The position numbers and the translations under genes were made by a program. Shown piece by piece: positions 35,090 through 38,311 of a DNA stretch of 38,311 nucleotides. Location of the stretch: the NCBI GenBank assembly GCA_027592645.1, contig JAQCKI010000001.1, positions 1 to 38,311 of the forward strand, given 5' to 3'. The stretch's first letter is position 1, and every line of letters starts with the position of its first letter. Source of the stretch: Chloroflexota bacterium (GTDB lineage Bacteria > Chloroflexota > Dehalococcoidia > UBA2979). The notes below the pieces were generated by a model. It was not told the origin of the DNA. It ran no database searches and was given only the letters and a program-made list of their open reading frames with translations.

Positions 35090-35563
35090 CTAGCGGCGCG
35101 AGCGAATCGTCGCGAGGCGCGTGCCGCCGAGCAGCAGCACCGTGACCCCGACGAGACCGAGTGCCATTGCCAGGCCGCTGCCAGCGCGAACGGGCGCGGC
35201 GTTCCCGGCGGCCGCCGGAACGAGCGGCACAGGCGCAGCCACAGCCGGGATCGTCCCGTGCAGCAGGCCCTCGATCACCTCGAGCGCTTCCTCGGCGGTC
35301 AGTTCGCCGTCCTCCCAGTCGTGAACCGCGGTATCGACCGCGCGGATGAGGTCGTTGCGGTCAGCAGCAGTGAGGTCGTGGACGATCTCCTCGATCGCTT
35401 CGAGCGCCGCCTCGGCCTCGATTTCGCCGTCCTCCCAGTGGTGGACGATCTCGTCGATCGCCTCGAGGGCGTCGTCAGCCGGCGCCGCGTGCAGAGCGTT
35501 GGCGGGCGCAACGGCGAACAGGGCGATGGCAATGGCTGGAGCCAACAGCGTTCGAATCTTCAT
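35090..35563 (-). CDS. Secreted, C-terminally anchored helical-repeat protein next to metal ABC transporter
   Basis: 157 residues, unknown family. Signal peptide at 1-26 (TLLAPAIAIALFAVAPANA), then a four-unit acidic helical domain (32-103) with units starting ALEAID, ALEAIE, IRAVDT and ALEVIE; units 1 and 3 share the motif VH[HD]WEDGE. A Pro/Ala linker (104-129), one transmembrane helix (131-149) and an Arg-rich tail RSRR follow. The helical domain aligns without gaps to the metal-binding protein encoded at the far end of this operon (28 of 72 identical). The His/Asp/Glu content fits metal binding. GGAGG precedes ATG 35563 at five bases. Own promoter likely. A role as metal reservoir or delivery protein is inference. 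Confidence 0.78.
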   Translation of the reverse strand: MKIRTLLAPAIAIALFAVAPANALHAAPADDALEAIDEIVHHWEDGEIEAEAALEAIEEIVHDLTAADRNDLIRAVDTAVHDWEDGELTAEEALEVIEGLLHGTIPAVAAPVPLVPAAAGNAAPVRAGSGLAMALGLVGVTVLLLGGTRLATIRSRR

Positions 35564-35618: not shown

Positions 35619-35653
35619 ACTCTATCTGCGCCTCAGTCTCAATTGCAAGAGAC
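35619..35653 (-). promoter_or_regulatory. Promoter with overlapping inverted repeat for the helical-repeat gene
   Basis: On the minus strand TTGCAA (35643-35648) and TAGAGT (35619-35624) are 18 bases apart. The inverted repeat GTCTC-N8-GAGAC (35636-35653) covers the -35 box, as an operator for a repressor would. A metal-responsive regulator such as Zur or MntR is a guess from context. Confidence 0.5.
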
Positions 35654-35668
35654 AAAGTATCACTACGG

Positions 35669-35687
35669 GGCCGGCGGCCCTCCGGCC
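35669..35687 (-). terminator. Possible weak hairpin after the permease gene
   Basis: GGCCGG (35669-35674) pairs with CCGGCC (35682-35687) around a 7-base loop, just behind the permease stop on the minus strand. No T run, so read-through is possible. Confidence 0.3.
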
Positions 35688-36547
35688 TACTCGGTGGCCG
35701 CGGCGATGGAGGGCATGCGTAGCGGCCGCCGCGCACGGCTCACCGCGAGCGAGGCGAGGAAGATCGTGCAGCCCGTCAGTACGATCGCGGGGCTGGCGGC
35801 GACGCCGGCGTGGAACGAGATGTGCATCCCCACCACCGACGAGGTGAGCGCGAATGCCACGGAGAGCAACATGATCCGCCGCAGGCTCGTCGCGAGGAGG
35901 GACGCCGAGGCGGGCGGGATGATCAGCATGGCGTTGACGAGGATGATCCCGATCGCTTTCAACGCGACCACGACTGAGATCGCGACCACCACGAGCATGG
36001 CGTACTCGAAGAACCTCGCGGGGACGCCCGTGGTGCGCGCCATTGCGGCGTCGTACGAGACGAAGAGCAGTTCACGCGAGAACGCCGCCAGGAACAGCAG
36101 CACGAGTACGCCGAGTACCCCGGCGTTCACGATGTCACCCCGCGCGATCCCCAGGATGTCGCCGAAGACGAACGAGAACAGGTCCGGCGTATATGACTGG
36201 CGCGTGGAGAGCACGAGCACGCCGAGCGAGAACATGGCGACAAAGAGGATGCCGATGGCGGTGTCGTACGAGACGCGCGCGCGGTCGCGCGTCCAGGCGA
36301 TGCCGAGCGCGGTCACCACCGCGGCCCCCAGCGCGCCCAGCGAGATGCTCATCCCCGAGACGAACGCGATCGCAACCCCCGCCAACGTGGAGTGCGCCAG
36401 CGCGTCCCCGGAGAACGCCAGCCCCTTGTGCACCACAAACGTGCCGACGACCCCGCTCACGACGCTGATGATCGCCAGCACGACGATCGCGCGTTGCATG
36501 AACGTGAACTCGTAGGGGCCGATCAGCCAGTCCAGCGCGGCGTCCAT
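35687..36547 (-). CDS. Metal (Zn/Mn/Fe) ABC transporter permease, ZnuB/MntB family
   Basis: 286-residue ABC-3 permease with about eight transmembrane segments. Conserved parts: GDALAHSTLAGVAIAFVSG near residues 47-65, SYDAAMARTTGVPARFFEY, and VALKAIGIILVNAMLIIPPA. It forms the channel of a divalent-metal importer. Its ATG overlaps the ATPase stop by one base (TGATG). With the ATPase and substrate-binding protein it makes a complete importer. Zinc versus manganese cannot be settled from the permease alone. Confidence 0.92.
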   Translation of the reverse strand: MDAALDWLIGPYEFTFMQRAIVVLAIISVVSGVVGTFVVHKGLAFSGDALAHSTLAGVAIAFVSGMSISLGALGAAVVTALGIAWTRDRARVSYDTAIGILFVAMFSLGVLVLSTRQSYTPDLFSFVFGDILGIARGDIVNAGVLGVLVLLFLAAFSRELLFVSYDAAMARTTGVPARFFEYAMLVVVAISVVVALKAIGIILVNAMLIIPPASASLLATSLRRIMLLSVAFALTSSVVGMHISFHAGVAASPAIVLTGCTIFLASLAVSRARRPLRMPSIAAATE

Positions 36548-37425
36548 CAGCGACCGCCTTCAGCAGAGCCGCCGTCGCCATCGCTCATCACGCCGTGCTC
36601 ATCGTTGATCACCTGGATGACACCGTGGCGCGGCACGGCGAGGAGGTGGCGCTGGAAGGTCTGCGACAGGACCTCCTCGGTCAGCACGTCGGCTGAGGGC
36701 CCCTGCGCGATGATCCGGCGGTTGAGGCAGATCGCCTCGTCACAGGAGTTGGCGACGCAGGACAGGTCATGCGTGGCGACCAGGATCGCCTTCCCCTCAC
36801 GCGCCAGACCATCCAGGATCTCGACCAGGTCGTGCTGCACCGCGGCATCGAGGCCGGCGAACGGCTCATCGAGCAGCAGCAGCCCCGCGCCGCGCGCGAT
36901 CGCGCGCGCCATCAGGACGCGTCGACGCTGACCACCTGAGAGTTGGCCCACCTGGCGGCGGGCGTATGGCGCGAGTTGGACGCGCTCCAGCGCCGCCATC
37001 GCCGCCTCGCGGTCCTCGGCGGACCAGCGTGCGAACGGGCGGAACTTCTTGTAGCGGCCCATCAGCACCACATCCAGCACGGAAACCGGGAAGTCCCAGT
37101 CGACCTCCTCCACCTGCGGCATGTAGGCGATCTGTTCGCGCGCCTTCGCCACGGGGCGGCCAAAGGCGAGCACTTCGCCCTCGATCGGCGTGATCAGGCC
37201 CAGCATTGCCTTGAACAGCGTGGACTTGCCGGCGCCGTTGGGGCCGATCAGCCCTACCAGTTCCCCGACCGGGACGCGCAAGTTGATGCCCTCGATGGCA
37301 GGTGGGAAACCCGGGTAGCCGGCAGCGAGGTTGCGCACGACGAGCGCGAAACCGTCATGCTCGTGCTCCGGCGCCAGCGGCTCACGTGGAGCCACATGGA
37401 CGGGCGCGGGCGCAAGTTCAGCCAT
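36547..37425 (-). CDS. Metal ABC transporter ATPase, ZnuC/MntA family
   Basis: 292-residue ATPase of the ABC-3 metal importer. Walker A GPNGAGKST, signature LSGGQRRRVLMARAIA, Walker B LLLLDEPFAGLD, and switch histidine in VATHDLS. It has an N-terminal extension of about 25 residues with a HEHD motif, and a C-terminal tail (about 20 residues) rich in Asp/Gly. Both are outside the usual domain and may affect metal sensing. ATG 37425 has GGAG five bases upstream. It lies 68 bases after the binding protein gene. Confidence 0.93.
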   Translation of the reverse strand: MAELAPAPVHVAPREPLAPEHEHDGFALVVRNLAAGYPGFPPAIEGINLRVPVGELVGLIGPNGAGKSTLFKAMLGLITPIEGEVLAFGRPVAKAREQIAYMPQVEEVDWDFPVSVLDVVLMGRYKKFRPFARWSAEDREAAMAALERVQLAPYARRQVGQLSGGQRRRVLMARAIARGAGLLLLDEPFAGLDAAVQHDLVEILDGLAREGKAILVATHDLSCVANSCDEAICLNRRIIAQGPSADVLTEEVLSQTFQRHLLAVPRHGVIQVINDEHGVMSDGDGGSAEGGR

Positions 37426-37493: not shown

Positions 37494-38311
37494 CTACGGC
37501 TGCCCCGCCAGACCCTGGACCAGTGCCTGAGCGTTTGCCCGCATCATCGCCGCGTAGGTGGGTGCTGTCTCCGATGGGATCGAGTGGATGATCGCGACCT
37601 CTGCCTCTGAGTCGCGCGCGATCAGGTCCAGCGACTGGCTGCTGTACTGCGGCTCCCGGTAGATCGTGGGGACGCCTGCGGCACGCACGGTTCGGATGAT
37701 CTCCGCAATCGCCGCGGCGCTGGTCGCCTGGTTCGGGTTCGCCGGCGCGACTGAGGCGATCACCTCGAAGTCATAGGCGGCAGCGAAGTACTGGAACGCG
37801 TCGTGAAACACGACCATCTTGCGGCGCTCCGTCGGGATCACGGCGAGCGTGGCGACGAGTTCCTCGTGGAGCGCGTTGAGTTCCGCGATCAGCGCGCTGG
37901 CCCGCTCGCGGTAGCCCTCCGCCCCTTCTGGGTGGACTCGAATGAGCGCGTCACGAATGTTGGCTGCGTACCCGGCCATGTTCCGCGCGTCCAGCCACAG
38001 GTGCGGATCGCCCTCCGCAAAGGCGATGTCATCGACCAGCACAGCCGAGTCGCCCGGAGCCGTCATGCCCTCCCCGTGCAGCGCCGCATCGATCGCCTCG
38101 ATGGCAGCGGCTGCATCGAGGCGGGACGCCTTCCACTCCGCCATCGCGGCATCCACGGCGCGGATTGTGTCATCGCGCTGATCCAGCGAGAGGCCGTCCA
38201 GCAGGCCGTCGATGGTGGCGAGTGCCGCCTCCGGGGCCACGCTCCCCGACTCCACGTCGTGGGCCAGCGCCTCGATCGTCTCGATCACGGCTTCCGGGCC
38301 GGTCGCCGGCT
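37494..38311 (-). CDS. Zn/Mn ABC transporter substrate-binding protein (ZnuA-like), 5' truncated, with inserted helical domain
   Basis: Cluster A-I metal-binding protein; the N-terminal lobe lies beyond the right edge, as the frame is open to base 38311. Numbering from Val at 38288: residues 1-72 form a four-unit helical domain, then GDPHLWLDARN (His96), VVFHDAFQYFAAAYDF (His162) and YREPQYSSQSLD (Glu212), the usual metal-ligand motifs. At the fourth position, normally Asp (LDPL), I read IHSI, so His235 may replace it. The helical domain sits where ZnuA proteins usually have a His-rich loop and is homologous to the secreted protein at 35090-35563. Apparent GTG 38288 is not the true start. Confidence 0.87.
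   Translation of the reverse strand, partial: PATGPEAVIETIEALAHDVESGSVAPEAALATIDGLLDGLSLDQRDDTIRAVDAAMAEWKASRLDAAAAIEAIDAALHGEGMTAPGDSAVLVDDIAFAEGDPHLWLDARNMAGYAANIRDALIRVHPEGAEGYRERASALIAELNALHEELVATLAVIPTERRKMVVFHDAFQYFAAAYDFEVIASVAPANPNQATSAAAIAEIIRTVRAAGVPTIYREPQYSSQSLDLIARDSEAEVAIIHSIPSETAPTYAAMMRANAQALVQGLAGQP

Follow-up and report, generated by a model that had tools for sequence, protein, structure and literature searches.

Why do a zinc-type substrate-binding protein (SBP) and a neighbouring secreted protein carry the same small helical domain, and do the two work together? The window analysed here is a stretch of 38,311 nucleotides, positions 1–38311 of a 103,455-base contig (G000:C73, where G000 is the genome under study, that of a Dehalococcoidia-class bacterium). 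It cuts the SBP gene, whose complete ORF encodes 490 amino acids (contig 37494–38966, minus strand); judging from the contig beyond the window, the GTG at 38288 is not the start of this gene. On the minus strand the order is a Fur-family regulator (P0005; Pfam FUR 3.6e-28), the SBP, an ATPase, an ABC-3 permease, the gene for the secreted protein (hereafter the stand-alone gene), and a thioesterase-like gene. The features are collected in Table 1.

Table 1. Features of the zinc-uptake locus and of related loci (window positions unless a contig or locus is named)
Feature	Position	Strand	Basis or remark
SBP gene (zinc-type), 3' part	37494..38311	(-)	Pfam ZnuA 2e-65; full ORF read
Module copy Z2 in SBP, residues 227-298	38073..38288	(-)	28/72 identity to stand-alone copy
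Other SBP module copy, residues 144-218	contig 38313-38537, just outside window	(-)	full SBP ORF
SBP second metal ligand His322 in GDPHLWLD, directly after insert	38001..38003	(-)	ligand positions H72, H322, H388
ABC transporter ATPase	36547..37425	(-)	Pfam ABC_tran 7.7e-29
ABC-3 family permease	35687..36547	(-)	Pfam ABC-3 4.5e-65
Fur-type operator-like site before stand-alone gene	35626..35648	(-)	twin of site before SBP gene, contig 39010-39032
Stand-alone protein (157 aa; secreted, anchored at its C-terminus; one module copy)	35090..35563	(-)	hydrophobic ends; AlphaFold
Stand-alone module copy (two hairpins, four helices), residues 28-102	35258..35482	(-)	pLDDT 94-98
Small His/Cys-repeat ORFs	L057:3239-3640; L058:3229-3555	(-); (+)	G016, G030

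The SBP, which looks lipoprotein-like, matched the ZnuA domain PF01297 in both lobes (221 bits, cut-off 29), in two stretches that flank an insert. From this match we assign it to the ZnuA-type (cluster A-I) metal SBPs, in keeping with the ZnuA-like label of the preliminary description. Zinc is the likely metal because the third ligand, H388, is a histidine where the manganese protein MntA has Glu; from what is known of the family, such a three-His site points to a zinc protein more than to a manganese one. The insert comprises about 185 residues between the two ZnuA lobes. The preliminary description had reported one domain immediately before the GDPH motif, where a His-rich loop would be normal. 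The domain and its site held, since genus-mates have a His-rich loop at that position, while the copy number did not: two copies stand between the N-lobe and GDPH, and the one at residues 144–218 lies outside the window.

We recounted the gapless alignment on which that description rested, with residues counted from 38288, and again found 28 of 72 residues identical between Z2 and residues 32–103 of the stand-alone protein. BLASTP gave the pair an E-value of 2e-8 (39% gapless identity over 71 residues), and the alignment score of 141 was reached in 0/2000 shuffles, whose maximum was 62. All three module copies were related in every pairing, beyond shuffles. Because the two hairpins of the stand-alone copy are 18/35 identical to each other, we regard the hairpin as the unit and the hairpin pair as the domain. 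An AlphaFold2 model of the stand-alone protein bears out the helical repeats that had been read from the letters, with helices at residues 28–44, 50–62, 71–84, and 90–101 modeled at high confidence (Table 1) and the signal peptide, linker, and anchor at low confidence; the module is thus modeled as two alpha-hairpins. The module is acidic, and comparison with Pfam, NCBIfam, PDB sequences, and Foldseek returned no significant family match, in agreement with the earlier impression that it is undescribed. Matches to XseB, SHOCT-like, and DUF2150 families fell below their cut-offs and covered part of one hairpin, and we rejected them as identities. The best Foldseek rows were designed zinc-bound helical proteins at E 0.6 and worse, to which we gave no weight.

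The stand-alone copy has five histidines near helix ends (His 41, 42, 62, 81, and 102). The first SBP copy retains the equivalents of His 62 and 81 and the second those of 41 and 102, so that each SBP copy has two, poorer than the stand-alone copy as first described. This placement fits a metal-handling module, as far as residue positions can indicate.

The stand-alone protein had been described as secreted and anchored; both points hold, the C-terminus being the anchored end. Its tail (window 35090–35230) reads PAAAGNAAP, a TM segment, and RSRR, and resembles the tail of another secreted protein (L098; PAGTGNTAP, TM) at E 0.09. Three genes of the sortase family are present in this genome; the stand-alone protein has no clear LPXTG, and wall anchoring is possible.

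When did this arrangement arise? Two genus-mates (G001 and G002) have the Fur–SBP–ATPase–permease–thioesterase order seen here and lack the stand-alone gene, the thioesterase gene directly following the permease. Identity to this locus is 89% for Fur, ~82% for the ATPase, ~70% for the permease, and 45–57% for the SBP. Their SBPs have a short His-rich loop (ADDHDHDGDGEQDHAAEDHVDE) and no module at the insert site, and their first and second ligands are 92 apart, as they are in G022, compared with 250 here (H72–H322). The simplest reading is that the branch leading to this species gained both the SBP insert and the stand-alone gene, with loss elsewhere as the alternative. An assembly chimera was considered and ruled out because synteny with the genus-mates extends over both flanks, to Fur on the upstream side and to the thioesterase, oxidoreductase, and further genes on the downstream side. 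The SBP of G008 (L029), another family member, has a longer loop region: 106 residues separate the N-lobe mark from DPH, and they include a hydrophobic stretch of helical appearance flanked by His-rich parts. The module profile did not match this region.

The two genes had initially been placed in the same operon. We prefer "same locus and probable regulon", because a 123-bp gap with its own operator-like site precedes the stand-alone gene. This gap and the one of 115 bp ahead of the SBP gene have TTGCAA(C/T)TGAGAC-G-GGC-CAG in common. Their best common 24-mer has 19 identities, a number reached in 0/1000 dinucleotide shuffles. In the 2.15-Mb assembly (87.5% complete), the pattern, derived from these same two sites, occurs at these two places only when ≤3 mismatches are allowed. 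The sites resemble the Fur-type 7-1-7 palindrome, also seen upstream of the SBP genes of the genus-mates, and we infer joint control of the SBP and stand-alone genes by the adjacent Fur-family protein. A promoter/terminator scan returned no match.

Is the module found elsewhere? A profile of the three copies matched one SBP among 60 relatives (G030) and one among 393 genomes of the class (G265), each with a hairpin pair at the insertion site used here; adding these two to the profile brought in further SBPs in G016, G267, and G334. A first GTDB contig scan with the three-copy profile gave no match. A scan of 84,980 GTDB genomes with the second-clade profile yielded ten loci, all of them SBPs and all from Chloroflexota/Dehalococcoidia/SAR202 MAGs. 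We refer to L085–L094, G016, G030, G265, G267, and G334 as the second Dehalococcoidia zinc-SBP clade. Matches in G055, G038, G211, and G293, and two phylum-level matches whose surroundings we read (L080 and L082), were unrelated helical proteins. Comparison of the three G000 copies with the second-clade inserts in hhalign gave a probability of 93.4%, E 2.4e-7, and a score of 42.8; controls reached at most 14.6 in 100 column-permuted profiles and 10.6 in the reversed one. On this profile evidence we conclude that the second-clade inserts are homologous to the module. In most of them a linker that is long, variable, and acidic/His in character parts the hairpins. The first hairpin contains VHEVE-G, whose His is invariant in 5/5 aligned inserts, and an AlphaFold model of one second-clade SBP reproduces the four-helix layout with lower confidence.

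Every homolog found is a zinc SBP with the insert at the same site, which upholds the suggested link to metal transport. Of the two outcomes named beforehand as counting against the preliminary description, a non-significant profile comparison and a wide spread of the domain away from metal-transport genes, neither was observed. Fur, SBP, ATPase, and permease occur together in most GTDB loci with enough contig; L090 had no ATPase or permease ORF match. The stand-alone protein was found in none of the 393 class genomes, 400 phylum genomes, or GTDB scans, the last being pattern-based and liable to miss divergent stand-alone proteins, and the gene is known from one MAG. No stand-alone partner was seen directly downstream of second-clade operons. 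Two genomes from a different genus in the family, G016 and G030, encode a possible metal-storage protein immediately after the second-clade zinc permease, in a small ORF bearing His/Cys repeats of the HECDDHEHH type.

How does the locus compare with known zinc-uptake systems? In the actinobacterial anchored-repeat system (TIGR03769–TIGR03772; C. diphtheriae ZnuAECB with ZnuF/ZnuG), an SBP likewise shares a motif with anchored proteins of its cluster, and the SBP is Zur/zinc-controlled. By the NCBI family description its insert presumably contains the TIGR03769 repeat, the support here being that this model is 41 positions long and the motifs of ZnuA are spaced by 45 residues. In C. diphtheriae the HxD/HxH motif is common to ZnuA and the membrane- or wall-anchored ZnuE/F/G, and ZnuA has an H63–H317 ligand spacing of 254 and a motif spacing of 45 residues (PMC12445094). 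The ligand spacing nearly equals the 250 found here, and therefore points to an insert of similar size at the same site. Zinc binding by ZnuE/F/G is indicated by thermal shift, the role of the motif in binding being called unproven by the authors, and deletion or overexpression of these proteins changes growth in low zinc (PMC12445094). ZnuE and ZnuF resemble the stand-alone protein in having a C-terminal TM segment and a charged tail. Unlike in that system, the module here is unrelated, is present twice in the SBP and once in the anchored protein, and is not accompanied by a clear LPXTG. TIGR03769 had no match in this genome at E up to 1 and none in P0001 or P0002, and TIGR03770/3771/3772 scored 179.7, 221.3, and 163 bits, all below the cut-offs of 296.8, 268.8, and 350. 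The working principle of the anchored-repeat system is present, namely the same domain in the SBP insert and in an anchored neighbour; because the domain differs, we treat this as analogy and not as membership.

The best NCBIfam matches of the SBP and permease are AztC and AztB, AztC being an SBP whose zinc chaperone, AztD, works in the periplasm or at the surface. The D-loop of AztC lies ahead of the second His ligand, and transfer of zinc from AztD, a beta-propeller, requires this loop together with its three His (PMC7463823). The site at which AztD docks is the one replaced here, and the partner differs in being a four-helix module. The NCBIfam comparison at the locus gave no AztD match in the stand-alone protein, and AztA/B/C scored 181.7, 207.1, and 188.5 bits, all below the equivalog cut-offs of 220, 280, and 350. 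With these cut-offs not reached, a neighbour unlike AztD, and no TIGR03769, we place the locus outside both AztABCD and the anchored-repeat family. Streptococcal AdcAII and polyhistidine-triad (Pht) proteins, between which zinc transfer has been studied (PMC3842936), are alike in that a surface zinc-binding protein is encoded with a zinc SBP; they apparently differ in having no domain common to both proteins and another fold. The second Dehalococcoidia clade is also comparable, since its insert occupies this site and consists of homologous hairpins; it has one pair, usually linker-split, compared with two here, and no stand-alone partner was seen.

Together, these observations suggest that the SBP and the stand-alone protein cooperate in gathering zinc. 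The reading we favor, at about an even chance, is a capture and hand-over pair that uses the D-loop site of the SBP. The flexible His-rich D-loop beside the metal site has been replaced by two four-helix modules, and a third copy, richer in His, is carried by a secreted protein whose C-terminus ties it to the membrane or wall. Under zinc scarcity the anchored protein would collect zinc outside the membrane and meet the SBP through the common module at the D-loop site, and zinc would pass first to the three-His site, which has high affinity, and from there to the permease. Here we infer zinc binding by the module, the contact, the direction of transfer, and control by zinc. We favor this reading because the same module is in the SBP and its neighbour and both are absent from two syntenic genus-mates; because all homologs found are SBP inserts at one site, most in visible Fur–SBP–ATPase–permease loci; because the twin operator-like sites are unique in the assembly; because the stand-alone copy carries five His, placed at the ends of helices and divided between the SBP copies, and the third ligand is His; and because AztC/AztD and C. 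diphtheriae Znu offer precedents by analogy. Against it, the SBP copies keep only two His each, the second-clade insert can evidently work with no stand-alone partner seen nearby, and the stand-alone gene comes from a single MAG.

A rather unlikely alternative is that the hairpins are a scaffolded loop replacement that buffers zinc near the SBP site in cis, the stand-alone protein being an independent surface buffer that never touches the SBP. Relatives do have His-rich loops at the insert site, C. diphtheriae ZnuF/G can be zinc sinks (PMC12445094), and in the second clade a hairpin pair frames acidic/His linkers with no stand-alone partner seen nearby, so that the insert can work alone. However, the G000 SBP copies have few His, and contact more readily explains why neighbouring, co-regulated genes would share one module. 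We think it improbable that the module is a metal-free dock that never binds zinc and, near the permease, links the SBP with the anchored protein (or with itself): a helical, acidic, duplicated module that has lost most of its His from the SBP copies would suit such a role, but helix-end His are kept in all copies at complementary positions, the first-hairpin His is invariant in the five aligned second-clade inserts, and the module is linked exclusively to zinc SBPs. Mere likeness between acidic amphipathic hairpins of separate origin, whether in the two proteins or the two SBP clades, is very improbable, for although the weak XseB, SHOCT-like, and DUF2150 matches show the pattern to be easily mimicked and the three-row profile alone gave the G265 insert E 6e-4, behind two unrelated helical proteins, the gapless identity between neighbouring genes, a profile score well clear of the permuted and reversed controls, and the fact that two of the few weak profile matches are SBP inserts at the same site all disfavor it.

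Extending the hand-over reading to the class, we tentatively consider, at well under an even chance, that the duplicated alpha-hairpin is a class-specific zinc module at the Dehalococcoidia D-loop, also placed on an anchored protein to give a module-to-module relay whose origin was separate from those of the actinobacterial anchored-repeat system and AztD. We conclude that the locus represents real module sharing and a variation on a known zinc-uptake arrangement, for which the mechanistic case is moderate. It defines an unannotated module in the zinc SBPs of Dehalococcoidia/SAR202-type bacteria and offers a small two-protein pair that is testable in vitro. Hand-over of zinc from a surface protein to an SBP has been studied for AztD–AztC and, less fully, for Pht–AdcAII and corynebacterial Znu. 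The locus points to a further solution, in which an unrelated helical module would serve at the same SBP site; if this is true, the D-loop position would be a recurrent docking port.
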